DNA from: Symbiodinium natans
Lineage: Eukaryota; Sar; Dinophyceae; Suessiales; Symbiodiniaceae
Length of the DNA: 64,000 nt
Assembly: GCA_905221605.1 (NCBI GenBank)
Contig: CAJNDS010002374.1
Span: 1 to 64,000 of the forward strand
Reading direction: 5' to 3'
The notes under the pieces are model-generated. The model searched no databases. It was given only the letters and a program-made list of their open reading frames with translations, and was not told the DNA's origin. This document shows positions 1 to 62,625 of this stretch, piece by piece. Each line of letters opens with the position of its first letter. Positions within the stretch are counted from its first letter, which is position 1. The position numbers and the translations under genes were made by a program.

Positions 1-1370
1 TAATTCATGTGTGAGAAATGATAATTGTTTTCGGTGACCCTTTGGGAAACATTGAAATGACAACCCATGTGCTTGCGAGCAAGTCGGGCTTGTGGGAAGG
101 CCCAGAACCCAGATACTTGCTCACAATATTCTCGCTGCCCCGGGGTTACATACAAAAACACCAATGCCCTCAAATACTTCCTAGTCTTTCGGTTTAGGAT
201 TACCGCCCTTTCCTCTCCATTTCTTTATTTGATATACAATACAGACACGCTACATACCTGCACGATGTGGGTAGAAATTCCTAGCTGTTCATGCAACACA
301 TAGGTTCCGGGGGCGAACTCAGCCGCTGCTTTTGTTTTTTTTTTTGGGGGGGGGGGGACTTTCCACAGAGGCAAGAAATGCTACAACTACAAAACGAAAC
401 ATTTCAACGAATTTCCATTAAAGAAACAGTTCCCGCCAAAGCAACCAATACCAAAAAACCGAAACAACCCAACAACAACAATTTTGCAGGACTCTTCGAA
501 AAACCAATTCCCACAAGACCAAAAAACCAATTCCCGCAAAACCCAAAAAACCAATTCCCACAAAACCAAAAAACAATACCAAAAAAAAACAAAAGAACCA
601 AAAAAACCAATTTTCCGGGACTCTGTGAAAGCTTTGGAGATAAGCTTACCAATCAAAAGTCCCGGAAAATTGTTTTTTTTGGTTTTTTTGGTTTTTTTGG
701 TTCTTTTGGTATTGGTTTTTTTGGTTCTTTGGGAATTGGTTTTTTGGGACTATGTCTTTTGGTTTCGGTGTCCCAGTTCCCCCTATGAGCCATGCACTCA
801 CATCCAAACACATAATCTGGCAGGTCGTTTTGGCTGCTTACTCGCATTACAGTTTGAACCTATCTCATACAGAAAAATGTATATTATATGCTACCCCCCC
901 CCCCCCGGCCGGCCCCCCTCCTAAACCTAGGTTTCGTACACTTTTGTCGTAAGGATGTGATACTCAGTTGCTTTGGATGAGTATCATGTAAGACCTTATG
1001 TGCTTGTGAGTCTTGCGGATAATTTGAAAAATGAGAATTGTTTTTGAGAAATGAGAACCATGTTGGGAGACCTGTGGAAAGCATTGAAATTGAAAAAAGA
1101 GATGTTTGTAGCAGCCCGCTGGAAGGTCCCAGGAAATAGTGAAAGGATATTTGCTCACAGTATTCTCGCGTCCCCGGGGGTTGCAGCAAAAGGTTTTATG
1201 CATCACCCTATGCGCTCGAAAACTTCCTAGTCTTATGGTTCGAGGCTTACCATCCTTCCTTCTCCATTAAATATCTGTCTTTGATATGCAAAAACACATG
1301 ATGTGTGTACTTATTCTGCTTTTTCTCTGCGTTTCCACAGGAGGCAAGCACTACAAACACAGGCAAGGTT
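1..1370. repeat. Diverged direct duplication (about 100-430 and 1105-1345)
   Basis: Two segments share the same order of motifs. Both have a 'tttgctcacaatattctcg'-like stretch, a 'ccccggggttaca'-like stretch, 'acttcctagtctt', a 'tctccatt' tract, a 'tttgatatacaa'-like stretch and an 'aggcaag' box, with many substitutions and small indels. Neither contains a credible ORF. A CCAAAAA foldback is embedded after the first copy. Nothing gene-like was seen. Confidence 0.6.
386..760. repeat. CCAAAAA-rich inverted repeat (foldback)
   Basis: The left arm (about 404-620) is built from CCAAAAAACCAATTCCC-type units and the right arm (about 655-745) from the reverse complement GGTTTTTTTGG. The centre holds 'aattttccgggact' near 610 and its reverse complement 'agtcccggaaaatt' near 656-671, separated by about 35 bases. 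The transcript could form a long hairpin. Overlapping ORFs in this region are low-complexity artefacts. Confidence 0.75.
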
Positions 1371-1435
1371 CAATTCCTATAGGTAACGCTGAAAACTGAA
1401 ACACGAGATCCTTTAATCCTATAGGGTGTCATACT

Positions 1436-1500
1436 GACATACATACATACGTACATACGTACATACGTACATACGTACATACGTACATACAGACATACGC
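1436..1500. repeat. ACATACGT microsatellite
   Basis: About seven units of ACATACGT (self-complementary ACGT core) in a row, starting with plain ACAT units and ending in ACATACAGACATA. It lies in gene-free DNA. Confidence 0.9.
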
Positions 1501-1895
1501 AGTTGTTGGGCTAACCCCGTGAAAGCTTTAGAGGTAAACCCTTAAAACCCCTGGACCTGCAAACCCTATAAGGTGTAAAGGTTTAAACACCTGCCTAAGG
1601 TCTGGGCATTTATACCTTAGCGCCTATACGGTTAAAAACCTTTGAACCCTTTAGAGCCCTATAGGGTTTCTCTATGGGCTTAGTTTTACATGCCTAAATC
1701 TTAAACCCTAAACCTTTAAATCTTAACCCTATAGGGATTAAAGGTTCGCCGAAATACGAACCTAAATGGTATAGGGTTAAGGTCTCAATACCTAAATCTT
1801 AAACCCTTAAGGTTTAAACTTTATGGGCTTAGGTTTACATGCCTAAATCTAAACCCTAAACCTTTAATTCTTAACCCTCTTGGGTTTAGCAGGGG
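1500..1895. repeat. Degenerate telomere-like tract (aaaccctaaacc / ccctataggg)
   Basis: This AT-rich tract contains repeated variants of 'aaaccctaaacctttaaatc', 'ccctatagggtt' and 'cttaggtttacatgcctaaatc'. It looks like decayed TTTAGGG-type repeat mixed with palindromic CCCTATAGGG units. No coding potential was seen. Confidence 0.55.
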
Positions 1896-3132
1896 CGGGA
1901 AGTCGCAGCATGTAAAACCCCAAAAACGCAGCGGCTGACTTCGCCCCCCGAACCAACACATACATCCTATGTACCTGTGCGACGCGTTAGAAATTCTACC
2001 TTTTCACACAACGCATATACTCTTCGTTTTTTGGAAAGAACACGAGGGACGAAGAGAAAGGACCTTCTCTTCCCATTTTCCTCGTCAAAAGGAAAAAAAA
2101 ATATCTGGATAGAATTGAAGAGAGAAGAGAGCGATGGAAAAGCAATGAGAAACAAGAAGGATAGCCTTTTCAGTCTATATAATGTTTCCTTCTTCTGATC
2201 GTTTGTTCTTCTGTCTTCGGTTTGTGCCTTGCCTTCCGCTTTTCCTTTGAAGAAGACAGAAAGGAAAGGGTGCGAATGGAGTTTCCTTTGCACGCTTTGA
2301 TGAGAGGAACACGTAAAGAAGAGAAGAGAAAAGAAGAGAAGACATGGAGACTGAGGACAGGGGGGGTTTCTTCCTCCTCTGACCTATCCATTTTCTGAAT
2401 AAGATAAAAGAGAAGCGCTCTTGTCCATTCTTTGTTGTGCAGTCTCTTCCTCTCTCGCTGAATGAGAAAAGAAAAGAGCAAGGCCACCGAAAAGGGACAA
2501 GGAGAACTTCTTCTTCGTTTCTTTAGCAGTTCCCTTGAGTTTCCTAAGCAAAAAAGAACAGAAGACCTGGGAATGCAGGAGAGAAAGAAAGCAAAGAGAG
2601 GGTGTAAGGGCACTCAGCGGCCTCCCTTCTTGCCACGAACAAAAACAATCCATCCTCCCCTCTTTTCCCGTCCATTAACTTCTCCTTTCCTTGTCCTCTT
2701 GTGTATTCATTTGTCACGTGTAAAAGAAAGCAAAGAAGAGAGAGGAGAGATAAGAGAGACGAGAGAGGATGATGGTGGCGAGATTCATGTGTATTCTTGC
2801 ATGTTCAGTTTTCCTGCTGTAAGAAAAGCGCTAAAGAAGTGGGAAAACAAAGACGATGCAGGATGAGTAGTGAGTGAAATTGGCGCCTTGCATATGTATT
2901 TGTCTTTCTGTAACGAGATAGACTACAGAACAGGGATAAGAGGGCAGAGGGAATTTCTTCGCCCTGTCGTATTCCTTTCTTCCAGACGAGAAGCAAATGG
3001 AGAAGACAAGATGGAAAGAGACATTCTTTGCTTCGCTGCAGATTGTGGGAAGAAAACAATGGGTTTAGAATCCAACAGTAGACTGCTTGGGGAACAAGGT
3101 TTCCCTTTGCTCTTTTTGTGAAAGTCGGGCAA

Positions 3133-3238
<106 letters not shown>

Positions 3239-4317
3239 AGAGAATGCGAAGGATGAAGGTAGGAGATGATCTGCAAGAAGAGAGCTGAACAAGATCGAGA
3301 AGAGAGGAGAGGGAGTTTCTTCTTCTTCCGCTTATGTATCCGTTGTTTTTTTTTCAAGCGTTCCTTGCTGTTTCCCTTCTACTGTGTCTTCCTCTCTTGC
3401 TGACTGAGAAAAGACAAGATTCTTAAGATCAAGGACAGCGAAAGGGACAGGGAAACCTTTTTCGCCTTTCTTATCTGTCCCTTTGAATCTCCTCAAACCA
3501 TGAACAGAAGACATAGGCACGCATGAGAGAAAGAAAGCAAATTAGAGCGAACACAGGAAATCAACCCTGCTCCAGGAAAAGAGGGAGCCCCTTTCTGCAA
3601 CTCACAAAACAATTTTTTCTTCCCTCTCTCTGATCGTCAGTTTGCTTCTTTTTGACCTGTCTTATTTTGCCCGTAAGAGAAGACAAGCACTCGGGTCAGC
3701 TCCTTGTCGTTTTCTCCCAGTTGTCTCTTCATGTCTTTTTGTGTATTCATTTGTTTCGTATGCAAGAAAAGAGCCAAAGCAGACGGAAAAGCGAGGAGTG
3801 CGTTTCCTCCCAGTCTTATGCGCTCATTCTTCTCAATAAGATAATAGAGAGAAGCACTCTGGTTCATTCTTTGCTGTTTTCATCCTACAATCTCTTCCTC
3901 TCTCGCTGAACGAGAAAAGAAGAGAGCAAGGGCAACGACAAGGTACAAGGAAAACTTCTTCCTACTTTTGTCCATTCTTTATTGTTTCCCCCCTGCAGTC
4001 TCTTCCTCTCTCGCTGAATGAGAAAAGAAAAGAGCAAGGGCAACGAAAAGGGACACGGAAAGCGTCTTCCTCTTTTTTTTGCAGTTCCCTTGAGTTTCCT
4101 AAGCAAAAAAGAACAGAAGACCTGGGAATGCAGGAGAGAAAGAAAGCAAAGAGAGGGTGTAAGGGCACTCAGCGGCCTCCCTTCTTGCCACGAACAAAAG
4201 CAATCCATCCTCCCCTCTTTTCCCGTCCATTAACTTCTCTTTTCCTTGTCCTCTTGTGTATTCATTTGTCACGTGTGTAAGAAAATATTTGGCTTCGAAC
4301 ATCCCCACCCTCTCTTG

Positions 4318-4625
4318 GTAGAGATACTCTGGGGTTGGGCACTCCAGCAACACTCTGGGGCTGGGCTCTCGAGGGAGACACTGGTTTGGGCTTCAGGGAG
4401 ACTCTGGGTTTGGGCACTGGGGTTGGGCCTCTGGGGTTGGGCCTCCAGAAACTCTGGGGTTGGAGACTCTGGGCTGGGCACTCCTGGAAACGGTGGGGTT
4501 GGGCGCCCTAGGGAGACTCTGGGGCTGGGCTGGGGTTGTCTGGGGTTGGGCACTCCAGGGCCACTCTAGAGTTGGGCACTCCAGGGACACTTTGAGGTTG
4601 GGCGCTCCAGGGATGAGCGAGGAGT
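4318..4625. repeat. GGGTTGGGC / ACTCCAGGGA minisatellite
   Basis: Roughly a dozen imperfect units such as 'actctggggttgggcactcc', about 20-25 bp each, G-rich on the plus strand. It sits exactly where the second copy of the local duplication is interrupted, so it arrived or expanded after that duplication. 4620-4690 carries three 'gggcgaggagaagagt' units. Confidence 0.85.
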
Positions 4626-5111
4626 AGACCGGGCGAGGAGAAGAGTTCCGGGCGAGGAGAAGAGTCCCGGGCAAGGAGAAGAGTTGAGGTCAAAATCAAA
4701 CAACCCCACACCGAGGGTGGGCAACAAAGAAGAGAGAAGGGAGATAAGAGAGACGAGCGAGGATGATGGTGGCGAGATTCATGTGCATTCTTGCATGTTC
4801 CGTTTTCCTGCTGTAAGAAAAGCGTGGGAAAAGAAAGACGTGGCAGGATGAGTAGTGACTGAAATTGGCGCCTTGTATATGTATTTGTCTTTCTGTAACG
4901 AGATAGACTATAGAACAGGGATAAGAGGGGAGGGGGAATTTCTTCGCACGCCCGACTTTCACAAAAAGAGCAAAGGGAAGCCTTGTTCCCCAAGCAGTCT
5001 ACTGTTGGATTCTAAACTCATTGTTTTCTTCCCACAATCTGCAGCGAAGCAAAGAAGGTCTCTTTCCATCTCGTCTTATCCATTTGCTTCTCGTCTGGAA
5101 GAAAGGAACAA

Positions 5112-5114
<3 letters not shown>

Positions 5115-5171
<57 letters not shown>
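5115..5171. repeat. (AG)n microsatellite, about 56 bp
   Basis: AG dinucleotide run homologous to that at 3137-3233, flanked on its right by the same 'gagagaatgcgaaggatgaa' sequence. Confidence 0.95.
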
Positions 5172-5178
<7 letters not shown>

Positions 5179-5599
5179 ATGCGAAGGATGAAGGTAGGAG
5201 ATGATCTGCAAGAAGAGAGCTGAACAAGATCGAGAAGAGAGGAGAGGGAGTTTCTTCTTCTTCCTCTTATGTATCCGTTGTTTTTTTCAAGCGTTCCTTG
5301 CTGTTTCCCTTCTACTGTGTCTTCCTCTCTTGCTGACTGAGAAAAGACAAGATTCTTAAGATCAAGGACAGCGAAAGGGACAGGGAAACCTTTTTCGCCT
5401 TTCTTATCTGTCCCTTTGAATCTCCTCAAACCATGAACAGAAGACATAGGCACGCAGGAGAGAAAGAAAGCAAATGAGAGCGAACACAGGAAATCAACCC
5501 TGCTCCAGGAAAAGAGGGAGCCCCTTTCTGCAACTCACAAAACAATTTTTTCTTCCCTCTCTCTGATCGTCAGTTTGCTTCTTTTTGACCTGTCTTATT

Positions 5600-6080
5600 T
5601 TGACTCATCTTCTTGCATTTTATCCTTTCTCCTTTGTAAGAACACAGCCAAAGAAGAGGCTGCGGGAGGGTGAACACCTTTTACCGACATATTCCCTTCA
5701 ATCTACTCGAATAGAAGACGGAACAGAAGACGTCGGAACACGAGAAAGAAGGCAACAGAGGGAGAATTACTGGAGTCTGCCATTTGCTTTTCCTGTCTCC
5801 TTTGTAAGAAAAAGCCAAAGAAGAGGTTGAAGAGGAGACGGAGGATGAAGAAGGCAAAATGGAAGGAATGAGCGGGCTCAACCCTGCTCTAGGGGGGGAA
5901 CCCCCTTTTGCAACGATCTCGTCTAGAAGAAAGGAACAAAGTGTGCGTGTGTGGGTGTGTTGTGTGTGGAGAACAATTAAAAGGTCATATCATACATAAA
6001 GGTTCCTGCCACATATATATATATATCACAAAAATTACATTATTCTTGCTACTCTTATTTTGATATACTCTCTATTTGTT
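5600..6080. other. No gene seen
   Basis: Purine/pyrimidine-biased unique sequence, then a GT-rich patch (5940-5970), a short (AT)n run near 6016 and AT-rich DNA. I looked here for the haem-binding exon of the P450-like gene and did not find one. Confidence 0.4.
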
Positions 6081-6120
6081 TACATGACCAGCCCATGTGT
6101 CGATCCTTCTGGCGGTTCAC

Positions 6121-6192
6121 CCGCCGGATTGCACCTGCGGGTGGCTTGAGGCGCAGCGACTCTTTCACGACCCGCAGGGTCACCGAGTCCTC
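6121..6192 (-). CDS. P450 K-helix exon (ExxR)
   Basis: The minus-strand frame reads EDSVTLRVVKESLRLKPPAG then AIRR. KESLRLKPPAG is a near-textbook P450 K-helix: Glu and Arg of ExxR are both present, followed by the RxxPP-type sequence. The exon can start after 'ccgcag' (AG then G) and end before a GT at 6120-6119. A TTTAGGG-like tract lies just upstream on the sense strand (plus 6218-6290). Confidence 0.7.
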
Positions 6193-9100
6193 CTGCGGCT
6201 TGGAAGGGTCTTTTGGGGTTTGGGGTTTTAGGGATTTAGGGCTTTAGGGTTTAGGGTTTTGGGGTTTTGGGTTTTGGGGTTTTAGGGTCCGCCGACCCTG
6301 GCGGCGTGTTGGATGGGAAAAGGAGGTGAAAACATAGGGGTCCTTTGTGAAAAAACCCCCAGTTGCTGGGCTTGGCTTTTTCCTCTATGCCCAACCCCTC
6401 CCCCCCCCCCCCCCCCCCGACCCACCCCCCCCCTTCCCCCCCCAACCCCCTTCCCCCCGACCCCACCCAACCCCACCCCCCCCCCCCCCTTTCCCCCCCT
6501 CCCCCCCTTGCCCCCCTTCTACCCCCCCCCCCCCTTCCAGTGGTCAGGTTGTTGGGGTTGAATGATGGGGCCTGCCCTCCTTCAAGCTGGCTTCAGCTCC
6601 TGTTTGGGTCCTGGTGCTACCCCCTACCCCCCCCCCCCCCCAAACGTTTCACAGAGGATCCTTTGAGCTGACGAGCGCGTTTAAACCTTTCAACTATGCT
6701 CCAGCGGAGTCGGCGGCTTGAGCCGGAGGCTCTTAAATTTTAGGGTTCAGGGTCTAGGACCTGGGGTTGTCTTACAGACTCAGGAGGGAAGCCTTGGAAC
6801 AGGGATCGGCGGCGCATTTGGATATCGACCCCCCATGCTCCGTCATGGAATGACAACCCTCGGACCCCCTGCCTGAACCCTAAACCCTAAACCCTAAACC
6901 CTAATCCCCAAACCCTACCCCAACAGCCCTAACACAGCAGGCGTCCTCAGGGCTCTTCATCTCAAGGTTCTCTGCAGCGACGCGCTGTATCCAGCTCGTG
7001 TGCTTGAACAGCCTCATGGTCCAGCTTGTTGGCAAGGCAGTAGACCACAAATTCAAAAAACAACTGATATTTTCTTACACATAGATATACAATATATATA
7101 TATATATATATTTATACATATGCATATATATATATAGATATATGTAGAGATAGATATGGTATAGCATACATGGCTGCATGAGATGCAGGCAGGCATGCAA
7201 ATGCCTAGGTCAACAGACCAACTTGATCACTGCAAAGCAGCCTTTTTTCAGAGCGACCCGAGGGTTCTCGCTCTACTTGGTAGTCCAGCAGCCATATGGT
7301 TTAGGGTTTAGGGTTTAGGGTTTAGGGATATTACAATAACCCGTACCCATTGTTGGTGTTGGTTACTTCAAAAGGGGGACCTTTAAATACCCGCAAAAGG
7401 GGCAAAGGGTACCACTGGGCTACCAAAACTGTAGAGTTCTCCGCATGTGCAGGTAAAGCCGGCCCTAATCCTGAGTGCTACACTGCGACTCTTGGGACTG
7501 TGTGCTCATCAGCACTTCACTGTGCTTGCAAAGTGGCTGCACCAGCAAGCATGGCAAGGCGTCTGCAGTGGTGAGCTTCCCGGCGATGAGGAGGGTGAAG
7601 ACCGTGTCTGAAATCTCCTCTGGTTTAGGGTTTAGGGTTGAGATTTCTGTTGGTGCCAAGACGACAACTGCTCTGTAAAGGCTCTACAGATCCGTCTCCC
7701 GCACATGTGGGTGCACCCCTAAACCCTAAACCCTAATATCACCCCCCAGGCCTATCTCCGCCTGGTTCTTAGTAGGGAATGAGGGAATGAGGGAATGAGG
7801 GAAGGAGGGAAGGAGGGAAGGAGGGAAGGAGGGAAGGAGGGAAGGGAAGGAGCTGTACATACTATGTAATCCCCTAAAGGGTATAAATAAATAAAAAAAA
7901 ATAAATAAATATATATATATATATATGCATATGTATATAGCACACACATATATATATATACATATATGTATAGGGCCCTCATTCCCTCATGTCCTACTAA
8001 GAACAACTTCCAAAGGGGGGGTCTGCAGATCTGTCCTCCTCCGTGAAGCCTTTGCCTTCTTCAGAGTCCTTCATGAGGTCGGCGATAATGTTCTGCCGAT
8101 GCTTATTTGGCTGTGCCATGACCTGAGCCGTCGAAATCAACTTCGAAGCCTTAAACCCTAAACCCTAAACCCTAATAAAAAGTCTCATGTGCGTTTCTTA
8201 ACTTTCAAGGTGCGCTTTGCGAGCTTGACATGCAAAGCGTCTTGCTCAAGAATGCTCAGAGCCCCAAACCAACTATAAAAAGCTTGCTGAGCTCGCCGGC
8301 CATGCAAACAGAACCCGAAACCCTAAACCCTAAACCCTATACCCAGTTCTCCAGCGTTCGACGCTGCGTCTTTGCGGGGTCCTGGTGGCCAATTGACTTG
8401 AGCCGCCGTGGACTGCAAGTCGCCAATCCGGCTTTGCAACCCTAAACCCTAAACCCTAAAAGCCCTAAACCCTAAACCCTAAACCCTAAACCCTAAACCC
8501 TAAACCCTAAACCCTAAACCCTAAACCCCAAAGACCGCCGGGACGTTCGTGCAGCTTCTCGGACCGCAGGCTGACTTTCCAGAACTTTGCGTTGTCCACA
8601 TCCTCACTTCTCTCGACTCGTCATCCGGCATTCGGTTTCTTCCCGGGCCGCCCCGGGGTTTAGGGTTTAGGGTTTAGGGTTTAGGGTTTAGGGTTTAGGG
8701 CTTAGGGTTCTGCTCCTTGGGCGCTCAGGAGTCTCGCAGCTTGCAGCAAGCAGCCAGCACATTGAGACGATCATGTCGGTCATGCCAAAGACCCCTAAAC
8801 CCTAAACCTAAACCCTAAACCCTCAACCCTAGACCCCAAAACCATACGTCATCAGGTTGAGAGGTCCAAGAGGGTTACGCGCAGCGAGTCGTAGCTCGTA
8901 GTTTGGCCGGGCCTTGGGCTTACATGTATCGTGAACTAGTGAGGGCGCGGTCCCTACCCGAGGCTAATTAACCTCAAGGTTTAGGGTTTAGGGTTTAGGG
9001 TTTAGGGTTTAGGGTTCAGGGTGAAGTCTGGACCCAAACCCGCAAATCAACACCCAGCCACCTTGGAGATCATCTGACAGACTTTGCTCCTTGCGATCAG

Positions 9101-9685
9101 TGCTCGCCCGTGCGCCGAGAACCGCCCCAGGTCGAGCGGAGCGGCAAGCATACCTTGAACCCTAACCCCTAAACCCTAAACCCTAAACCCTAAACCCTCT
9201 CGTTCTGCCTGTTAGGGGCATGGCTTGGGCTTTCGCTTTGCTGCGTCTGAAAGTAGACGAGGCACCTCCGAGTTAATTTGCAATCGCCACGAGGGATATG
9301 CTTTGGGGGCCACGCCACGGGCACCAATGCCACGAGGAGTTTTCTTTGTTTTTCGTAACATGCTTGCGACGTTGCAAGCAAGTGCTGCAGAAAAGGAAAT
9401 CTGGCATTATGAGTGCCACAGAAATCAAAGCCATGTAGCTCTTGCTTGCTGCCTGTGTAAAGCATGCGCAGGGGGTGTGAAAGGTGGCTTGCCACGGAAG
9501 GCTGAAAAACAAAAAAAAAAAATATATATATACATATACTGTCTACAGAAGTCAACCCAGGACAGGCCAGCGCGTTTGAGCCATCTGAAAAAATGTTTAC
9601 CAGAAACCCCTGACCCAACGAGAGGGAGATGTTTGACACCCACACCACTACCGAGATCAAGTACGGCACAGACCTGCGACATGCT
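6121..9685 (-). CDS. Cytochrome P450-like gene, many tiny exons in TTTAGGG repeats (partial or relic)
   Basis: Reading the minus strand, short open islands separated by TTTAGGG/CCCTAAA arrays give peptides in P450 order. They are a possible proline-rich-hinge-like piece 'HLPLVGSGVSGKHFF' (9.68-9.54 kb); several unassigned pieces (9.15-8.53 kb); a C-helix-like 'KTQRRTLENW' (8.44-8.35 kb); 'RQNIIADLMKDSEEGKGFTE' (8.15-8.03 kb); an I-helix with AGKLTTAD (7.62 kb); 'LFKHTSWIQRVAAENLEM' (7.03-6.95 kb); and a K-helix 'VVKESLRLKPPAG' containing ExxR (6.19-6.12 kb). P450s are haem monooxygenases, usually ER-bound in eukaryotes. The usual acidic residue before TT in the I-helix is Leu here. The Cys haem-ligand exon is not visible, so the gene may be 3'-truncated or a relic. 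Family membership rests mainly on the I- and K-helix exons; upstream exon joins are inference. Confidence 0.55.
6218..6300 (+). repeat. TTTAGGG/TTTTGGGG-like interstitial telomeric tract
   Basis: Mixed 'gggttttagggatttagggc' and 'ggtttagggttttggggttt' units directly beside the K-helix exon. TTTTGGGG variants are mixed with TTTAGGG. Confidence 0.85.
6399..6650. repeat. Poly(C)-rich low-complexity block
   Basis: Several C runs of 10-20 bases (near 6399-6420, 6424-6535 and 6628-6642). Proline-rich ORFs through it are artefacts; run lengths are likely unreliable in the assembly. Confidence 0.9.
6873..6930 (-). repeat. CCCTAAA interstitial telomeric tract
   Basis: Four perfect CCCTAAA units followed by degenerate ones, just 3' of the 6946-7028 exon on the sense strand. 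Confidence 0.9.
6946..7028 (-). CDS. P450 exon after the I-helix
   Basis: The minus frame gives MRLFKHTSWIQRVAAENLEM then KSPED. It resembles the 'L-x-K/R-H-P-x-W-x-x-R-V-x-x-E' stretch that follows the I-helix in P450s. A possible 3' end lies at 'cctgag' followed by GA; joining it to the K-helix exon keeps the frame (KSPE-EDSV). CCCTAAA repeats lie directly downstream on the sense strand (plus 6873-6905). Confidence 0.5.
7090..7160. repeat. (AT)n-rich tract
   Basis: Runs of 'atatatatat' and 'catatgcatatatatatata' in the putative intron between the 7028 and 7465 islands. It may form cruciforms. Confidence 0.85.
7298..7327 (+). repeat. TTTAGGG interstitial telomeric tract
   Basis: Four consecutive TTTAGGG units. 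Further short patches lie at 7622-7637 (TTTAGGG) and 7720-7737 (CCCTAAA). Confidence 0.9.
7465..7619 (-). CDS. P450 I-helix exon
   Basis: The minus frame gives EISDTVFTLLIAGKLTTAD followed by ALPCLLVQ. This matches the P450 I-helix, where AGx(D/E)TT forms the oxygen-activation groove; Leu replaces the acidic residue. The open frame runs to a stop at 7465, but the exon probably ends earlier, near the LLVQ codons. The 3' splice site reads '...ctaaaccctaaaccag' then AGG, so the upstream intron ends inside telomere-like repeat. Confidence 0.65.
7757..8010. repeat. Inverted-repeat element with GGGAAGGA and AT cores
   Basis: 'ggttcttagtagggaatgag' at about 7763 recurs in reverse complement near 7985-8003 ('ctcatgtcctactaagaac'). 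Between the arms are a (GAGGGAAG)n array (7780-7850) and (AT)n/(CATATA)n runs (7880-7970). It lies wholly within the putative intron upstream of the I-helix exon. A small non-autonomous element or hairpin is possible. Confidence 0.7.
8026..8149 (-). CDS. P450-like exon before the I-helix
   Basis: The minus frame gives ASKLISTAQVMAQPNKHRQN, IIADLMKDSEEGKGFTEEDR, S. It fits the P450 region just before the I-helix (a 'DLL...L.....G...T.EE' pattern). The 3' splice site is '...ggtttaggg tttaag' followed by G at 8149, so the intron upstream is TTTAGGG repeat to within a few bases of the exon. Confidence 0.5.
8155..8340 (-). repeat. CCCTAAA tracts (8155-8176, 8318-8340)
   Basis: Two short CCCTAAA arrays, TTTAGGG on the sense strand, that make up most of two putative introns. 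Confidence 0.9.
8203..8312 (-). CDS. Exon-like island between telomere-repeat introns
   Basis: The minus frame is open: FYSWFGALSILEQDALHVKL then AKRTLK, followed by a GT at 8202. Joining phase 0 to the exon at 8149 keeps the frame. The start is uncertain: AG choices lie near 8273 or about 8300. No specific P450 motif. Confidence 0.4.
8346..8440 (-). CDS. Exon-like island, possible P450 C-helix
   Basis: The minus frame gives KAGLATCSPRRLKSIGHQDP then AKTQRRTLENW. QRR..LENW resembles the C-helix region (R+R...). It ends at 'aactgg' followed by GTATAGGGTTTAGGG, a GT donor that runs straight into the repeat. Confidence 0.4.
8440..8532 (-). repeat. CCCTAAA array, about 12 units
   Basis: Long nearly perfect CCCTAAA array with one AAAG interruption. 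It occupies nearly all of the gap between two open minus-strand islands. Confidence 0.95.
8530..9150 (-). CDS. Four further exon-like islands (8530-8625, 8705-8795, 8845-8925, 9060-9150)
   Basis: Each island has one open minus-strand frame: SEDVDNAKFWKVSLRSEKLH; VFGMTDMIVSMCWLLAASCE; ARPNYELRLAARNPLGPLNL; and MLAAPLDLGRFSAHGRALIA followed by RSKVCQMISK. Flanks offer AG-G acceptors such as 'ttcaag' then G near 9150 and GT donors such as 'atctccaag' then GTGG. None has a motif I can name. They are grouped with the P450 because of order, strand and spacing. Confidence 0.35.
8656..8708 (+). repeat. TTTAGGG array
   Basis: Seven TTTAGGG units, opposite in orientation to the arrays on either side. 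Confidence 0.95.
8785..8835 (-). repeat. CCCTAAA tract
   Basis: Imperfect CCCTAAA units between two exon-like islands. Confidence 0.9.
8976..9027 (+). repeat. TTTAGGG array
   Basis: Six TTTAGGG units between exon-like islands. Confidence 0.95.
9155..9198 (-). repeat. CCCTAAA array
   Basis: About five CCCTAAA units. Another patch in plus orientation lies at 9778-9815. Confidence 0.95.
9540..9685 (-). CDS. Exon-like island, possible P450 N-terminal hinge
   Basis: The minus frame contains VCAVLDLGSGVGVKHLPLVG then SGVSGKHFFRWLKRAGLSW. 'LPLVGS' followed by a Phe/Trp-rich helix resembles the start of the P450 catalytic domain. It ends next to an (AT)n-poly(T) tract. Weak evidence. Confidence 0.3.
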
Positions 9686-9814
9686 TTTCTCATGCTGCGA
9701 AAGCGACCCGTCATCACGTCGTCGAGGAGCGCCTCGAAAGACCTCTGCTCAGCCTCCTGAAGGGTGCCAAGAGCTGGGTTTAGGCTTTAGGGTTTGGGGT
9801 TTAGGGTTTAGGGT

Positions 9815-10445
9815 AGCTGCAGGGCTCCAGCAAGGGCAAGCTTCCCAATGACATCCAATGATCCGGAAACGGGACCCCGCACGCACGTGCCCACGATTTC
9901 TGGAGACCTTGTGCCTTGAGTCTGGATGGGGACTCAGGATGCTTGCATAAGTCTAAAGAGTGACCTAACTAGCCCAGAAACCTTATTTGGCATGATCTTC
10001 GGGCCCCAGAGCATCAGAAAGCAGAGTTCCGCCAGACATGCAGTAGGAACCCCAAAGGCACACAACTTGGATAACAGTTTGTTGAGTTAGAATTAAGTCT
10101 AAGGTTTATAGGGTAACTCCACAAGAGTCTAAGGTTTATAGGGTAACTCCGCAAGAGGCAATGCCCTAGGCCCAAGAGTAATCTAGGAATAAGAAGGGCA
10201 CCCTTTTGGTCTACAGGGGATCGGGAGGGGAAGGGAGGGAAGAAAGAAGGGGAAAGGAAGGAGGAAGGGGAGAGAAGGGGAAAGAAAGGGAAAGAAGGGG
10301 AAAGAAGGAGGCGAGAGGGCGTCCCCAAGACTCACACCTTTTTGGAAGCTACCGGCAGGGTGCACATTGGGAGCTTCTTCTGAGGAGACATGGCCATGTC
10401 TGTCTCCTTCAGCCTCCTTCGGCCGCAATTGCATGCTGGCAACTC
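9815..10445. other. Gap with minor repeats; one possible exon (10343-10436)
   Basis: 10095-10160 holds a 31-bp unit repeated twice ('gtctaaggtttatagggtaa' and following). 10215-10310 is a GGGAAAGGA-type purine run. The minus frame at 10436-10343 reads MQLRPKEAEGDRHGHVSSEE, followed by APNVHPAGSFQK, and then GGTGTGAG, a good GT donor; it could be a 5' exon of the P450-like gene. Otherwise nothing was seen. Confidence 0.35.
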
Positions 10446-10446
10446 C

Positions 10447-10482
10447 AAGGGTTTAGGGTTTAGGGTTTAGGGTTCAGGGTTC
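10447..10482 (+). repeat. TTTAGGG tract
   Basis: Four to five TTTAGGG units about 180 bp beyond the stop codon of the NRPS-like gene. Confidence 0.95.
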
Positions 10483-10661
10483 ACATCAAGTTCAAGCCTT
10501 TACTGGAACTCTCTCACGAGTCGGCGCTCCTTGTGGAGCCTTGCGAAGTGTCAACACTCAGGGTCGGGTGTCTGGAGCCTGAATCTTGAATTTCTCACCT
10601 CAGTAGGTATATTCATTACAGGTACGGTGTGTTGAAAGGAGGGCCACATAACATTCTCCCA

Positions 10662-12989
10662 TCAGGAGTCTGCGAACGGCTTGTGGACAGGCTCCAATGG
10701 CTGAAAAACCACATCCCATGTCGCATCCTGAAACGCCTGCAGGAAGCGACTGCACCAGCATGGTGGGTACATCTTGTAGGACATTCGCGCAGCCATGCAC
10801 CATCGATCCTGGTGCTCTTCCCACATGTCGAACTGCAAGGGCACGCTTAGCCATTTGCTGGAAAAGTCGAACCAGGGCTGCGTCCACATCGCCTCGGGCA
10901 CCTGGCGAATGCCAGCCCCATAGCGCCGATCATCGATCGAGTCGAAGTTCACCAAAATCTGCTCTGGCTTTCGGCGCGCATCGTAGATAGTCCAGCGGCG
11001 CATCCTGAGGATGTCCGTCACGTGCAGCAGCACGCCGAGGATCGTACTGTCGGCCAAGGCCGTTGGTACGCAAATGTCGCGCCAGTCAGCAAAAAGACCC
11101 GCCATCCCAGCTTCCAAGCCGTCTCGCATTGGGACATACATTGTCAGGTCCACCTCCGAGCAGGCGCTGGCTCGGGCTTTGGCCACGGAAACCAAGGTCA
11201 GCAAGAGGTGGTTCATCGGCACGGCATAACTCTGGGCCACTGCCTTGAGAACCAACAGGGTGCGTCCTTGGATCACGAGGCCGCAAGTGTACCCTCTGCA
11301 GGTGATGCCCCAGAGATTCCCGCGAAGGGAGTGCCGCATGGGATCGTCGGATTGGAAGAGTGCCTCCTTCACGCGACTCTCCAGAATGCTCAACTCGTCG
11401 TTCTTGGCCGGTGGCATCTCAAGGGTCTTCTTCGCCAGAGCCTCATAGATGTCAAAGAGGTCTGCGGCGAAAGCCGAAAAGCTGTAGCCATCTGCGATGG
11501 TGTGAAGGCAAAGAAACAGCACGAAATTCACCTTGTGAACAGGATCGCCTGGTTGGGGCAGCCTGGTGACTGCGAAGGTGTGCATCTCCGACTCCGGCGT
11601 GCGTTGCAGGCAGACCTGCATGTTGCCAGGAGAAGAGATCCGCAGCCACACTGATGCACCATCAAGATGCCCAGAATAGAGGGGCCGAAATGATGTGGGC
11701 GGTGCTGGGCTCAAGGGATGCTCAGGTGTGCGCAGGACCACTTGCCCCTTCAAGTGAACTGAGTCGACATAGATGAGTTCTCCATCCTCGTTTCGGGTGA
11801 CGCGGACTTGTCCACCATCGCAATCCCACGCGCCCTCCAGCGCCACGCTGAGCTGCAGCAGCCAAATCTCAAATGGCTCCCGCTGCCAGGTGTGAAACTG
11901 CCAACCGCTCTGCACCCGGTGCTCGAGGTCATCCTGGCCCTGAACTTGGAAGACCTGGAAGCGGCCAACAGTGCCAACAGTGCCATCAGCCGGCGCCACC
12001 ACCACCCTCGGCCAGCATCTCAACAAGGTGCCTCCCAGGAGAGAACTGAGCCTCGACTTCGACATCACCATCATCAGCAGGGAGGCGCAGTTACGCACAA
12101 AGTTACGAAGGGCGATGGGATCGGCATTGCGAGCTCGGAGGCCTGGGTGGCAGCACACCAGCTCCTTCACAGCGCCGCGCAGCGTGGCAGCATCGATTGC
12201 CCTCTCTGTCCGTGCCAACCACAACAGGGGCTGCGAGAAATGGTTCGGCTTGATGAAGAGGATGTACTCGGCGGTTTTCGGTTCCGGGGCGGATGCAGGC
12301 AAAGCTGGGGCAGCCTTCACCAAAGACAGAAGGGTGCTCACGCTGGCAGCCTGTTGAACCGCTGCCGCGTCCACCGCCTTCCCGAGGCTCTGAAATGCAC
12401 CGGTGAGCCAACCAGCCCGGAGGCTGTCCAGCGTCAGTGGGTCGTTTACGTCAGCCACAGGGAGGATCTGCTGGAGCAGCTCAAAGGCTCGATGCTCCAA
12501 GGGCGAGAGCGTCGCGGTGTTTCGTCGCTCGCCGCGCTCCGCCGCGCCATCAGGCCCATCAGGGCCATCAGGGCGGATGCGGAAGGTCTGCAGAGCCCGG
12601 TCCGAATCGGACTCGGAGAAAACCACTTCTGCTGTCTCGTTCGAGAACTTTGTCCGAACTGGCGAGGCGGCAGCGCTGGCATTCTCGAAGGCCACCATTT
12701 CCAGGCAGCTTGCCTCATCCGCGCCATCTCCCAAGAGCCTCAGCACGGCCGCCCAGACCCTCGCGGAGGCCTGGCACACTTCGTAGTGGAGCTGTGTGCC
12801 GACACCAAGCCAGAAGACCAAAGGCCAGGCCGCGAGTCGACGACGGCGCGCGGCCACCGCGGCGCCAATGCTTGCCAACCTGAGAGACTTTCGGTAAAGA
12901 GTTTCGGGCAACCCTTTGAATCCCTTAGGCTGGTTCAGTTCTTGGGATTTCGGAGACTGCGGTTTGAGAATTTTCTTCTGCTCACGCAC
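10662..12989 (-). CDS. NRPS-like gene, last exon (carrier and condensation domains)
   Basis: Numbering from the Met at 12989, residues 50-90 are hydrophobic (AAWPLVFWLGVG). Residues 165-230 form a carrier domain with DPLTLDSLRAG, where Ser189 (about 12423-12425) is the expected phosphopantetheine site. The rest is a condensation-type fold with 'LHTIADGYS' (HxxxDG catalytic motif, first His of HH replaced by Leu, about 11490) and 'MRDGLEAGMAGLFADW', like the R...G.F latch region. The true exon probably starts after an AG near 12890 or upstream. Plus-strand ORFs of up to 397 aa here are antisense shadows. Confidence 0.8.
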   Translation of the reverse strand: MREQKKILKPQSPKSQELNQPKGFKGLPETLYRKSLRLASIGAAVAARRRRLAAWPLVFWLGVGTQLHYEVCQASARVWAAVLRLLGDGADEASCLEMVAFENASAAASPVRTKFSNETAEVVFSESDSDRALQTFRIRPDGPDGPDGAAERGERRNTATLSPLEHRAFELLQQILPVADVNDPLTLDSLRAGWLTGAFQSLGKAVDAAAVQQAASVSTLLSLVKAAPALPASAPEPKTAEYILFIKPNHFSQPLLWLARTERAIDAATLRGAVKELVCCHPGLRARNADPIALRNFVRNCASLLMMVMSKSRLSSLLGGTLLRCWPRVVVAPADGTVGTVGRFQVFQVQGQDDLEHRVQSGWQFHTWQREPFEIWLLQLSVALEGAWDCDGGQVRVTRNEDGELIYVDSVHLKGQVVLRTPEHPLSPAPPTSFRPLYSGHLDGASVWLRISSPGNMQVCLQRTPESEMHTFAVTRLPQPGDPVHKVNFVLFLCLHTIADGYSFSAFAADLFDIYEALAKKTLEMPPAKNDELSILESRVKEALFQSDDPMRHSLRGNLWGITCRGYTCGLVIQGRTLLVLKAVAQSYAVPMNHLLLTLVSVAKARASACSEVDLTMYVPMRDGLEAGMAGLFADWRDICVPTALADSTILGVLLHVTDILRMRRWTIYDARRKPEQILVNFDSIDDRRYGAGIRQVPEAMWTQPWFDFSSKWLSVPLQFDMWEEHQDRWCMAARMSYKMYPPCWCSRFLQAFQDATWDVVFQPLEPVHKPFADS

Positions 12990-15900
12990 CCTAAAATTTA
13001 AGCTGTGGTTTCGGGTTTAGGGATTAGGGCCCTAAAGCCGGCACTCCTCCGACGAGGGGCGTGTTTTAGCCGTGTTTTGATGACGAGGGCATGATACGTA
13101 CTTGTAGGGCTTCGGGGTGCGATCGACCACGGCAAACATGATAGCAAGGGACTTTTCAACCGAACTGGCTGGCCGCCCTAAGCATTCAAGCTCCTCTCAT
13201 GACTGCAACGCGACCAATACTGCGTGTTGTAGATGAAATACTCTATCTTACATACGAATAACTACTATGATCGAAATGTAATTGTGAATTATGATATATC
13301 ATGCAGTAACTTATTCTTGTACATCCTCAAGAAGTATGGTACGAGTATGTAAGTACTCCTGGCCAAAGGGGCAGAAGCCGCAACCAGTGCGCAGGAAGAA
13401 GATGCACTGTCAGTATGAAGCCCATCCTGTCGTCTTTTCTGACTGAGTCTCTACGGAGCCCCGTGCACAAAAAACTCTAAACCACAACGCCCCTTCTTTC
13501 CGCCGCCCCCCGCCTCCCTCCCCCGCCGCCCCCCACCCCCCCCCCCCCCTCCCCCTCAGCCATCCCGGAAGCCATAGAACTTGCATCCTGTACCCTCTCA
13601 ATAGCCTGCCACTGCTTCAGGTGGCCGAGGTGGTGGTGAGTGTGCTGGCTACGGTCTCTCACAAGCCCGCTCCCAGTACACGCAGGAAACCCCTGCAGGT
13701 GCGGTGACGGCAGCTCAGCTCTGTAAGCCCTGGCGCCTCGTCATAGGAAGAGAATTCAAGAATGCCTCGGAAAGGTGATATTCTTTTTGGATCTGTGGGG
13801 CTTGGTGGCTTGAGCACAATATATATATATATATATGCTCACCCCCCCCAATGGACCAACCGCGAAATGAAAAGGACAGGAAAAAACTAGTTGTTTTTGT
13901 TGTGCTTTGTGTTTTCTTGCGTGTTTTGCCTTATTTCTTGTGCTTTTTGTGCATTTCGTGCATTGTTGCACTTTTCTGGTGTTTTTTGCACTTTTGCACT
14001 TGTTTTGCTTTTTTGCACTTTTGCACTTTTTGGCTTTTTACACTTTTTGGGCTTTTCGCACTTTTGCACTTTTTTTTGGTTTTTTTGCATTATTTTCATA
14101 TACTGTGCTTTTTTTTCTATGCTTGTCTTATGCATAGAAATCCAAAAATCCAAAAAACAAAAAAACCAAAAATCCAAAAATCCAAAAATCCAAAGTTCTC
14201 CGGACAATCTCCCAGGAAACTTTGGATTTTTGGATTTTTGGACTTTTGGATTTTTGATGATTTTTCACATTCGAGGTTGGCTGATATTCGTTCTCCTTTT
14301 TTTGAATGAAAGGAGGGCGAGCATTCAAATGTACCCTTATCAGAATTTCAAATGCGTCCTACCTACTCGAAACGTGAACACTACATTCATCGCACAACTA
14401 AATAGCATATTCAATAACATTTTGAATATGATGTTTCTGTATATGAGGACCAGGTAAAGTCTTGCCTATTCAAATCACTGAGAAAAGCACGTACATGGGT
14501 TATGCACAGGCCTTTGCCAAGGAGGCTTTAACAAAGAAGGCCTATATGTGCAAATATCGACTTTTGCATTTGAAAGAAGCTGAAATATCCTTTTTTTCAA
14601 TAAGAACCATTCTGGGATCACAGTACCTGCTGTTTAAGAAAAAGCCTATATCTCATGAACACCCTTTCTTTGCGATAACGATTTAGTTCTTCTGATCTGT
14701 TAATTCAAGCTATTAATATTGCATTGCCCCCTGTGATTATTGCAGCAAAGCCTGCTCGAATCGCATTAGCGTCTTAACTACTCGATTGAAAACTGTATCA
14801 AAAAATCTAAGTAGCCTGTTCAAGAAGCCAATAAGGTTTTGAAAACATCCTACTCGAAAAGCCAACAAGAGGTTGAGCAGAAGATTTCAAGACAGTAATA
14901 GGGCTTGGGTCCAATACAGGGCTAGTGAACTGTCCCAATGGACCAACCGCGAAATGGAAAAGAAGTCCAAAAGTCCAAAAGTCCAAAAATCCAAAATCCA
15001 AAAATCCAAAAACCCAAAAACCCAAAAATCCAAAAATCCAAAAATCCAAAAACCCAAAAATCCAAAAATCCAAAAATCCAAAAATCCAAAAATAAAAAAA
15101 CCCAAAAATCCAAAAATCCAAAGTTTCCTGGGAGATTGTCCGGAGAACTTCGGATTTTTGGATTTTTGGACTTTTGGATTTTTCGTTTTTTGGGTTTTGT
15201 GCTTTTTTATGTTTTTTGTGCTTTTTCATGCTTTTTCGTGCTGTTTTGCACTTTTTGCACTTTTTGCACTTTTTGCACTTCTTGCACTTTTTGCACTTTT
15301 TTGCACTTTTTGCACTTTTTTTGCACTTTTGTTGCACTTTTGTTGCACTTGTTTGCACTTTTGCACTTGTTTTGTACTTTTTTGCACTTTTTTGTGCTTT
15401 TTGCACTTTTTGGTGCTTTTTTAATTTCGCAACATTTTTGCAAATATTTGTCCTCTTGAATATGCTTTTCCAATCCAAAAAATCCAAAAATCCAAAGTTT
15501 CCTGGGAGATTGTTCGGAGAACTTTGGATTTTTGGATTTTTGGACTTTTGGATTTTTGGACTTTTGGATTTTTGGGTTTTGGGATTTTTGGATTTTTGGA
15601 TTTTTGGACTTTTGGATTTTTGGATTTTTGGATTTTTGGATTTTTGGATTTTTTGGATTGGAAAAGCACATTCAAGATGACAAATATTTGCAAAAATATT
15701 GCGCAATTAGAAAAAAAGCACCAAAAAGTGCAAAAAGTGCAAAAAAGTGCAACAAGTGCAAAAAGTGTAAAAAAAGTGCAACAAGTGCAAAACGTGCAAA
15801 AAAAAACAGAACAAAGCACAAAAGAACACACAAAGCACAAAAAACACGAAAAACAACACAAAAAATGCACAGGAAGCACAAAAAGCACAAAGAAGTGGAC

Positions 15901-18028
15901 AGGGAAAGCATGGCAGGGTACAGTGTCTCGAGAACCTTGGACATGTCGATGTGGGTCCATTGGGGTTAGAGGTTGGGGGGGGGGGGGGGGGCGACCATAT
16001 ATATATATATATACCCCATACAAGTTAGCAGAACCCTTGCCCAGTTTGGGTGAGAACACTGCCATGTACCGTCCATACCCATCCGATTTTTTAAACTCAA
16101 GACTCTGATAGCATGCCCAAGCGGCGTTCAGCCGGACGCTGCTGTGCGAGAGCTGCGCCATGGCTAGCCAGGAGTAGGCCATGCCAAGTGCTCGAAGGAG
16201 AGGCCATTGAGTCGTGCCAAGCTGGGACGCGCCTTGCGCGCTGAGTTGCCGAAGGCCTGCTCCGAAGGCATCTCCACCAACTGCGATGAAGAGGGCAGCG
16301 ATGCCACACAGCGCGTGCTGACAGCACACAGCCTGGAGCCTCTGGCGCAAATGCGGCTGGGCTGCCTTGGCCTGGCGCGCACGCGACTGCCCTTCCCAGC
16401 GCTGCTCCAGCGCCTGAAGGTGAATCTTGCCGGTGGGATTCCGCGGCAGCTCTGGAAGCAGCTGCAGAAAGCTCCGCGACGGAAGCAGCTCCCTCACTCG
16501 GCGAATGGCTTTCGCAGCTGTGGCCAACCCGGAAGAGATCCGGAGGCAGCTGGCATCGATGGACAAGAATGCACAAAGTCCGCTGTTGTCCTCGACAGCG
16601 CAGACCTCTTTGATGCCCACAATGCCCTGCAGTGCTTTCTCAGTAACAGCAAGGTCGACCCACTGACCTCCACGCTTGGCTCGGTGATCCGCGCGGGAGT
16701 GGTAAATAATTCCGCCAGGTGCTACCAGGACCCTGTCCCGCGTGCGGTAGTAACGCTGGCCATGTATGGAGAGGAAGCTGGCTTCAGTGGTGGCCTCGTC
16801 CACGTAGCCTGGAATCACAAAAGGGCCGGCGAGAAAGAGCTCCCCGACATCGCCCTCAGGCACCGGCATCATCGCATCGTCCAGAACCAAGTAAGAGACG
16901 TGAGAACCAGCAGACCGAAGAAGACAGCCACCTCCGCCGCGGTCGGTGTACTCTGCAACAGGCTGCCCAACAAAACCCAGCCAGAACTCCGTCGCGGCAA
17001 AGAGCTCCAGAACCAGTCCGGGGTGACCTCGCCAGCGGTCGACCAAAGACCCTGGAAATCGTTCGCCCCAGGTCATAACCAGCCGCATCCAGGGAAGCTC
17101 CTTGCAAGGGTCCTCAGCCAAGAGCCTCAACTGATCAGGCACCATGCCAACAACATCCACTCGCTCTGAGATCACTAAACGCCGCAGCTCCGCTGCGTCT
17201 GCTGTGGTGGTGACCACGGCGCAGCCACCGAAGGCCAAACACAGGCTCAGCGTCCCTACACTCGACGCGGCCCAGTAGTTGCGCAGTTGTTGCAACACGC
17301 GGGGTTGCCCACCCTCCAGGCGGCGACGGAGATTGCATACATTGGGATAATATCGCACGTCCGTCAGGACCACCACATGCGACACTTTGGCAATCTTGAG
17401 CTGACGGCTCCCTCCTGTACACATCAAGCAGAAAATGCGTTCTGAAGGGTCTTCACCTGATCCACTCGTCTTCACCAGAGTCAGCGGCTGGCCTGAATTG
17501 GTGTCATCCAGAAGCGAATCTTCTAGGGAGATCCAGTCCATACCATCGCTGGGAGTCGTTGCCATTCGCTCCGCGGTGTCGGTAACGATCAAGGATGGGC
17601 GCAGCGTCTCCAACAGGAAGCAGTTGCCTATACTGAACTTGGAACCCTGGCAAAAATTCTAGTTTTAAGCTGTTTCTGAGGAATGATAGAACCAACAAAA
17701 GCTAAAGAATTTCCAGGTATACCCCGAAGTTGCGCTGACCTTCTGCCTGCTTGTCCGGAAGGTCGGTACTGAGCAGGACAAAGGGCCGGTAACAGCGAGC
17801 ACACGCCAAGCAGAGCGGCAGGAAGTCGCGATGCGTCCTGTCTACAAAAAGAGCAACGCAGCCACGGGACTGCGCCAAGCGGGCCGCCAAGCCGCTCGCC
17901 AAAGAGTGACTGCGCCCCACTAAACCTTCGTATGTCAGCTCATAATACCCAGGGGCACGAATCGCAGGCGCCTGCGGCGTTGCGATTGCCTGGAGATCAT
18001 AGGCCTCCTGGACCGTTCGGGGTTCCAT
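10662..18028 (-). CDS. NRPS-like multidomain protein: adenylation, hydrophobic linker, carrier, condensation
   Basis: Three coding blocks, read right to left. The start ATG at 18028 has a good context (GGGAGCCATGG). Exon 1 (18028-17747) and exon 2 (17646 to about 16100) encode an adenylation domain that would activate an acid as an acyl-adenylate. Exon 3 (about 12990-10662) encodes a carrier (T) domain and a condensation-type acyltransferase domain, ending in TGA at 10662. The intron between exons 1 and 2 is GC-AG (17746-17647, 100 bp) and keeps the frame. The last intron is about 3 kb and holds a palindromic element. Hydrophobic helices lie between A and T, so the enzyme may be membrane-attached. 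The order A-T-C with a terminal condensation domain suggests transfer of a bound acyl group to an amine or alcohol. The substrate cannot be read. Exact ends of exons 2 and 3 are uncertain. Confidence 0.8.
13005..13817. other. Intron, left part; no gene seen
   Basis: A TTTAGGG/CCCTAAA fragment at 13014-13035, AT-rich unique DNA, and a C-rich block at 13500-13560 ending in a long C run. No exon-like frame with matching domain content. Confidence 0.5.
13818..16012. mobile_element. Nested palindromic (foldback) element in the NRPS-like intron
   Basis: Mirror-image order: (AT)n, C run, 'caatggaccaaccgcgaaat' on the left at 13818-13870; 'ggtccattggggt', G run, (AT)n on the right at 15950-16012. 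The left terminal motif recurs at 14935. Inside are (TTTTTGCAC)n arrays (13970-14080, 15240-15420), their complement (15710-15800), and arms of (CCAAAAAT)n paired with (GGATTTTT)n around a conserved core 'tttcctgggagattgtccgg' at 14195, 15125 and 15495, the first inverted. 14265-14930 is unique. No transposase was seen. It is either a foldback-type non-autonomous transposon or a stacked set of hairpins. Confidence 0.75.
16100..17646 (-). CDS. NRPS-like gene, exon 2 (A-domain motifs A3-A10 and hydrophobic segment)
   Basis: Begins GSKFSIGNCFLLETLRPSLI after 'ttttgccag'. Motifs in order: a degenerate A3 P-loop 'CTGGSRQLKIAKVSH'; A5-like 'LELFAATE'; A6/A7-like 'VGELFLAGPFVIPGYV' and 'YYRTRDRVL'; A8-like 'RADHRAKRGGQWVDLAVTE'; and A10 'LPRNPTGKI', with the Lys that binds the acyl-adenylate. 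After A10 comes a hydrophobic stretch (ALCGIAALFIAVGG). The A3 loop is atypical, so catalytic competence is unproven. The frame stays open into the palindromic repeats to 15421, but that extension is surely intronic. Confidence 0.8.
17747..18028 (-). CDS. NRPS-like gene, exon 1 (A-domain motifs A1-A2)
   Basis: Starts MEPRTVQEAYDLQAIATPQ, a typical A-domain opening, followed by ELTYEGL (core A1) and 'CLACARCYRPFVLLSTDLP' (core A2 region). The exon ends at DLPDKQ with a GC donor (17746-17745) in phase 0. Reading on past the donor meets a stop at 17702. A TTTAGGG patch lies about 45 bp upstream of the ATG. Confidence 0.8.
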
Positions 18029-18059
18029 GGCTCCCGCGCCCTAAGTTTTTTGGGGGAGA

Positions 18060-18085
18060 AGGGTACAGTTAGGGTTTAGGGTCCT
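18060..18085 (+). repeat. TTTAGGG patch upstream of the NRPS-like start
   Basis: Short 'gttagggtttagggtcctag' about 35-45 bp upstream of the NRPS-like ATG. Confidence 0.8.
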
Positions 18086-18194
18086 AGGAGGCTCTGAGGG
18101 TTTAGCTTTGTGCTTGCTTGGCTCCGTGGCCGCTGGGTCTCTACAAAACCGACACTGAAGGGATGCACATGTATGCACTAGTCTCCTGCACAAG

Positions 18195-19853: not shown

Positions 19854-19915
19854 TTGGAGGTGACCACTTTAGGGTTTAGGGTTTAGGGTTTAGGGTTAGG
19901 GTTTAGGGTCTAAGA
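19585..19915 (+). repeat. TTTAGGG patches (19585-19625, 19740-19773, 19869-19910)
   Basis: Three arrays in TTTAGGG orientation, opposite to those at 18.4-19.1 kb, alternating with roughly 100-bp unique islands. Confidence 0.93.
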
Positions 19916-20099
19916 ACTGCTAGGGATCATGGAGGATCACTGCAGAGAGGGCGTAGCTACCACGACAAGAAAAAGGATTCACACCATGACAAGTAAATTT
20001 TCGGCACCACGACAGAAAGAAAACTTACCACGACAGCGAACGAAACCTGAACACGACAAGGAATGCAAACCTCGCTATGGTTAGGAGAAACCCAAACCT

Positions 20100-21545: not shown

Positions 21546-21584
21546 TACCACTTGCTTGTCGAAGCGGGAAGAGGCAGGCATATT

Positions 21585-21656
21585 GACCCCTAAACCCTTA
21601 TCAAGCTAAACCCTAAATCCTTGTCAGGCTGAACCCTAAACCCTTGTCAGTGTAAG
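21585..21656 (-). repeat. Decayed CCCTAAA / 'cttgtcag' repeat at the end of gene copy A
   Basis: Three repeats of 'aaacccttgtcag'-type sequence ('taaacccttatcaagc', 'taaatccttgtcaggc', 'taaacccttgtcagtg'). The stop codon ending the copy A reading frame lies in it. Confidence 0.8.
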
Positions 21657-21930
21657 AAAAAACCTTGTCGCTGCAGTTGTAAAGCTTGTCATTGTGCAGA
21701 AAACTGTGTCGTGGTAAGAACGTACTGTCGTGGCAGAGCAGTCGCTGTCCGTTTCAGACTTTCGGTAGCTTGAAACGGCCTGCAAAAGCAAAAAAGCAAA
21801 GGCTGCCGGAGCCTCGGGATACCCTGACTCGGCACAGAGCTTGCGGTACTCTTCCGCTGAGCTTGGCAGCGTCTTGGGGGTGATGACGCCAGCCGTGAAG
21901 CCACTTGCATAGCTCCTCGATCTCACGATC
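21636..21930 (-). CDS. Copy A terminal exon, truncated
   Basis: TAGVITPKTLPSSAEEYRKL, then CAESGYPEA, is clearly homologous to copy B at 45710-45610 (TGGVVTPATMPKTAQEYQDL). After about 30 residues similarity stops, and the frame runs through 'ttttttgcttttgcag' to a stop made by the TTTAGGG repeat (TRV-TAG). The satellite and telomere-like repeats follow. Confidence 0.6.

Positions 21931-62591: not shown

Positions 62592-62625
<34 letters not shown>

Follow-up and report, generated by a model that had tools for sequence, protein, structure and literature searches.

Telomere-type repeats inside chromosomes have been described in several systems. In mammals they form short runs with no signature of transposon insertion, and their origin by break repair has been argued (PMC2246262). 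According to the available text of the respective reports, TT[T/C]AGGG repeats occur in gene-family islands of Plasmodium knowlesi and TTTAGGG bands lie inside chromosomes of Eimeria (PMC9131526), introns of a P. knowlesi gene family are laden with repeats (PMC5798397), and TTTAGGG/TTTGGGG has been reported at scaffold ends of Amoebophrya (PMC7789003). In dinoflagellates TTTAGGG is the telomere unit (PMC11453091), and introner elements have been reported there (PMC11453091, PMC7789003).

The locus considered here is a P450-like gene with TTTAGGG/CCCTAAA arrays in its introns, situated in a stretch of 64,000 nt (further, the window). It comes from Symbiodinium natans, an alga related to coral symbionts; in dinoflagellates splice sites are unusual and introns are often gained. 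As in mammals, the arrays are short stretches of the telomere unit, probably internal to a chromosome, without transposon insertion signature, but, unlike the mammalian sequences as these are described in the available text, they crowd one gene, with at least one array per model intron and a bias towards 3' splice sites. The repeat type, the alveolate host and the location partly in or near multi-exon genes are common to S. natans, P. knowlesi and Eimeria, whereas placement at 3' splice sites is not described in the accessible portions of the latter reports, and the S. natans case concerns a single enzyme-like gene. With dinoflagellate introner elements, as far as the accessible text describes them, the locus shares repeated DNA in introns and non-GT donors, but the S. 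natans arrays have no direct and inverted repeats at their ends. Telomere arrays beside 3' splice sites are not mentioned in the accessible portions of the literature.

Thirty-six arrays have been identified in the window by periodic alignment (score 10 or more), and their distribution is uneven: three weak arrays at 1–6120 (1.4% of bases), 13 at 6121–9685 (15.5%), two at 9686–10660, one at 10661–18040, ten at 18041–21700 (14.4%), and seven, of 10–16 bases each, at 21701–64000 (0.2%). Units are mostly perfect, with 95 copies of TTTAGGG, the commonest one-letter variants being TTTGGGG (8) and TTCAGGG (4). This is the unit known for dinoflagellates generally; genes flank the arrays on both sides within the 64 kb, and the arrays are probably interstitial telomeric sequences. 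The 13 arrays at 6121–9685 alternate with unique islands, as had been noted in the initial annotation, six of them facing one way and seven the other.

The gene is real and was previously annotated: the protein P0041 (169 aa, deposited as Symbiodinium natans, partial, from a contig of 461550 bases) is the exact product of seven spliced minus-strand exons of the window. Exon 1 of the deposited model, MAMSPQKKLPMCTLP (10353–10397), matches P0041 exactly and is the least certain, with no clear counterpart in the dinoflagellate Effrenium voratum. All subsequent exons are supported both by the match to P0041 and by alignment with P0042, a cytochrome P450 of E. voratum (406 aa). These are EAEQRSFEALLDDVMTG at 9708–9756 (acceptor CAG, donor GT), the F-G region at 9062–9153 (donor GT), the H-helix region at 8036–8122 (donor GA), the I-helix exon with AGKLTTAD at 7538–7617 (donor GC), the J region at 6946–7012 (donor GA), and the K-helix exon with KESLRLKPPAG at 6106–6192, which is the last in the deposited partial model, although its homology extends past that model to 6091. 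The H- and I-helix exons also belong to the joined exons that match PDB sequences, and the I- and K-helix exons are further supported by their motifs. The six introns of the model, on the same strand, are 10352–9757, 9707–9154, 9061–8123, 8035–7618, 7537–7013 and 6942–6193 (the last from 6945 in the deposited model), with donors GT, GT, GT, GA, GC and GA, respectively, and AG before each internal exon. The gene extends upstream past 9685; the deposited model puts its start at 10397, and it perhaps lies further.

Spliced onto the window, P0042 yields the same internal exons with 188.2 bits, the ends differing slightly at three of them. According to the available text, the published S. natans pipeline retained models backed by transcripts or by two ab initio programs, and it recognised GA donors (PMC8045281). 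Two earlier guesses about exons and introns have been abandoned. An exon at 9400–9325 was superseded by 9153–9062, based on the P0042 alignment and the P0041 splice, and the array at 9776–9814 is no longer read as an intron of 44 nt in its own right, with a CAGCT duplication, since both the deposited model and E. voratum place the acceptor at 9757.

The P450 identity of the gene, proposed initially with a PF00067 search as the check, is supported by sequence comparison. P0041 reaches the gathering score of this family (43.4 bits, cut-off 22.8), as does P0042 (60.7 bits, the same cut-off), and the two proteins share 94 of 156 residues (60%). Among 1699 candidates, the 267-aa gene model matched three proteins with E of 10 or less: P0041, P0042 and P0043, the latter an open frame on a 12053-base contig, with no Pfam hit. 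A join of three neighbouring exons has 24 PDB matches with E of 10 or less, of which two fall below 0.001 (best E 6.4e-4); by name, 22 of the 24 are P450, one is lanosterol 14-alpha demethylase and one putative monooxygenase. The joined exons also match 81 plasmid records; among the 30 matches listed, 28 are annotated as cytochrome P450 and two are unannotated. No P450 match was obtained in Pfam for ten islands and the neighbouring open frames taken piece by piece, nor did the I or K exon alone match PDB, as single exons are too short.

Spliced alignment of a profile of nine plasmid P450s gives 59.5 bits on the gene. In the control, 23 of 24 window segments of the same length, from both strands, score 16.7–27.3 bits, and the remaining one, at 58.5 bits, includes the H, I and K exons of the gene itself. 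Ten shuffles score 15.1–23.4 bits, the reverse complement 17.4 and the reversed target 15.6, while in a finer profile scan the best unrelated segment reaches 28.8.

The I-helix and K-helix motifs (7567–7584 and 6142–6162, minus strand) follow in the correct order, exactly as the first inspection suggested. The K-helix KESLRLKPPAG contains the ExxR signature, with E and R invariant in an alignment of seven sequences. The usual I-helix motif of P450s is AGx[DE]TT. Here, AGKLTTAD keeps the threonine and has L in place of the acid; the same AGKLTTAD is present in E. voratum P0042, while in the aligned plasmid P450s TT is mostly preceded by an acid. The haem-binding end with the cysteine region was not found in the window, including the 6 kb downstream, with a bacterial and archaeal profile or with the P0042 alignment; it may lie beyond the left window edge. 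P0042 is homologous to the window gene over 156 aa at 60% and has the haem-binding region, in an altered form, whereas the window gene is without this end. Among solved structures, CYP120 (PDB entry 2ve3) is the closest, matching P0042 with E 9.7e-13. No counterpart of P0042 residues 1–114 was found in the window. Hence the gene is incomplete within the window, and an intact, working P450 is not supported, as the window contains no haem exon.

Two pieces further upstream on the minus strand are probable exons of the P450 gene, judging from their alignment with E. voratum, or may form a part of a second copy. One, at 19532–19570, aligns with E. voratum residues from 115, its alignment start is not at AG, and an array is situated 9 nt upstream; the other, at 18757–18807, corresponds to residues 128–143, with an array 20 nt upstream of the acceptor. 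Taken alone, these two pieces score 26.55 for P0042 residues 115–143, which ranks first among 62 overlapping segments; on this DNA, 100 profiles with shuffled columns reach at most 24.0. By a hand count of the alignment 15 of 33 residues agree. They are chosen at intron cost 6, with the total of 201.5 bits (the 188.2-bit run scored donors more strictly), and are not chosen at costs 4 and 2.5, when the alignment strings chance pieces across neighbouring open frames.

If both pieces belong to the gene, one P450 intron would contain two other minus-strand frames; alternatively, the pieces derive from a second copy that is broken. The AMP-binding (NRPS-like) frame is located at 15421–18028, with 15421–17658 matching PF00501 (E 1.2e-17), and its named relatives in a list of 39 proteins are bacterial adenylation or acyl-CoA-synthetase proteins. 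The condensation-like frame of 784 aa at 10665–13016 has a weak, below-cut-off similarity to PF00668 (E 4.6e-4) and matches only itself among 7981 scored candidates. Short arrays, 18069–18082 and 13007–13029, are observed directly upstream of the starts of the AMP-binding and condensation-like frames, respectively.

The arrays sit within introns, and the introns themselves are not arrays. The six introns contain, in order, 1, 1, 6, 2, 1 and 3 arrays, and none is found in the seven exons. Hence, of the original suggestion that nearly every intron is made of repeats, the presence of arrays holds for six of six introns, but they form a minority of each (5.7–31.8%). Nor are introns mostly repeat overall, as had been proposed: arrays cover 551 of 3565 bases at 6121–9685 and 590 of 3782 intron bases (15.6%). 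Likewise, equating islands with exons proved correct for the seven exons matching P0041, but several islands are intronic, e.g., those between the six arrays of intron 9061–8123. Besides, an inverted-repeat element at 7765–8004 encloses AT and AGGG repeats.

New in this locus is a bias of arrays towards 3' splice sites. The closest upstream array lies, in order, 19, 4, 29, 4, 285 and 19 nt from the internal exons. The corresponding arrays are 9776–9814 (plus; 19 nt before the 9756 exon), 9158–9198 (minus; 4 nt before 9153), 8152–8175 (minus; 29 nt before 8122), 7622–7639 (plus; 4 nt before 7617) and the degenerate 6212–6288 (TTTAGGG on the plus strand; 19 nt before 6192), while the J-region exon is the sole internal one without an acceptor-near array. 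Further arrays are located in intron 9061–8123 (8312–8344, 8438–8532, 8656–8709, 8793–8840 and 8978–9022, no strand assigned), in intron 8035–7618 (7717–7736, minus), in intron 7537–7013 (7298–7327, plus), in intron 6942–6193 (6872–6917, minus, and the short 6739–6758, plus), and upstream of the first deposited exon (10448–10481, plus).

For five of six acceptors an array ends at most 30 nt upstream, compared to 0.73 expected (permutation p about 1e-4), with the acceptors taken from the deposited model, at one locus, and with both the test and the cut-off chosen after seeing the data. When two weaker exons are added, this holds for seven of eight acceptors with 1.17 expected (p 5e-5). At other cut-offs p for the six acceptors equals 0.025 (10 nt), 4.5e-4 (20 nt) and 5e-4 (40 nt). 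In the permutation, arrays of score 14 or more (15 and 24) were placed randomly outside exons 20000 times. The same procedure reveals no significant excess at donors (1 of 6 vs 0.62 expected; 2 of 8 vs 1.05). Acceptor-near arrays do not differ from the rest in purity (p 0.27) or length (p 0.95), and both orientations occur among them, four being CCCTAAA-sense and three TTTAGGG-sense; for these reasons we treat a role in splicing, and selection on the arrays, as hypotheses.

We favour, with a probability of about 0.6, the explanation that these are interstitial telomeric repeats inserted into a P450-like gene during break repair, with insertions into exons lost and those on the acceptor side of introns retained more often. 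Runs of the cell's own telomere repeat would have been added at chromosome breaks, by telomerase-assisted end joining or by capture of telomeric DNA; exon insertions would then be eliminated and intron ones tolerated. Arrays beside 3' splice sites might survive more often if the repeat is compatible with, or perhaps serves as, the 3' splice context, which could be provided by TTTAG|G in one orientation and by a C-rich stretch with CTAA in the other. Break addition suits the data better than transposition, given both orientations, mostly perfect units and control-level direct repeats at array flanks. Five of the 26 arrays are flanked by direct repeats of at least 4, compared to 16.7% of control pairs, without the excess expected of target-site duplications; inverted matches are somewhat more frequent than in the control (12 of 26 vs 27%), a feature that this explanation does not account for. 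Here, 26 arrays of score 14 or more were considered, with the weaker ones among the 36 left out.

The arrays could also be regional debris, unrelated to splicing, around a decaying, truncated P450 gene in a repeat-rich stretch such as an old subtelomere or fusion point. The absence from the window of the haem exon and of residues 1–114, the partial status of P0041, and the clustering of arrays at 6.2–10.5 and 18.0–19.9 kb, with weaker ones outside, all agree with decay. On the contrary, the reading frame of the seven exons is intact and they are 60% identical to E. voratum, the missing end could be past the left window edge, and the arrays have a positional bias at acceptors; we regard this possibility as less likely, albeit the strongest competitor. 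Arrival of arrays with introner-like or other intron-making mobile elements is considerably less plausible. Introners are indeed reported in dinoflagellates in the available text (PMC11453091, PMC7789003), GA and GC donors are present, and the inverted-repeat element in intron 8035–7618 has 29-nt arms that are 93% alike, but introner elements are recognized by direct repeats at the ends and terminal inverted repeats, whereas the arrays show no direct-repeat signature and a weak excess of inverted matches, and the array-masked islands show no mutual similarity within the window other than at that element and at the 20–21.5 kb repeats. Finally, an assembly artefact, with collapsed repeats or misjoined fragments, seems very improbable: two neighbouring open frames recur on a 12053-base contig, as if another assembly broke nearby, but the P450 exons keep their order, strand and frame across the arrays, and the published S. 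natans assembly, as far as its available description goes, combined short and long reads (PMC8045281).

A bolder reading, which we consider rather doubtful, is that arrays serve the S. natans genome as portable 3' splice modules. Once inserted, either strand would give a usable context, and telomerase-made DNA would thereby be recruited to define exon starts. One strand would supply a branch-like CTAA with a C-rich tract, and the other, TTTAG|G acceptors. Should arrays prove to be positioned or retained next to 3' splice sites across the genome, this would link telomere synthesis to dinoflagellate intron structure; otherwise, the locus is a case of dense but ordinary interstitial telomeric repeats in one gene.

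The second cluster of arrays (18069–19909, no strand assigned) comprises 18069–18082, 18414–18533, 18671–18737, 18828–18907, 19033–19094, 19418–19442, 19580–19626, 19739–19774 and 19868–19909. Next to it, at 20100–21540, a hairpin unit (GGGAATCACCGTTTTGG..., also present as its complement) recurs many times, with runs of C or G in between. Scans of the window for tRNAs and Rfam families were empty. The region 2418–5602 is purine-rich and contains several near-identical internal duplications, e.g., 3180–3669 and 5115–5602 (98.8%). A long gene region on the minus strand is present as two diverged tandem copies, at 22000–37000 and 46000–64000, with blocks of roughly 68–82% identity; the copies contain PAN-like and TSP1-like pieces, and telomere repeats there are only chance-sized.
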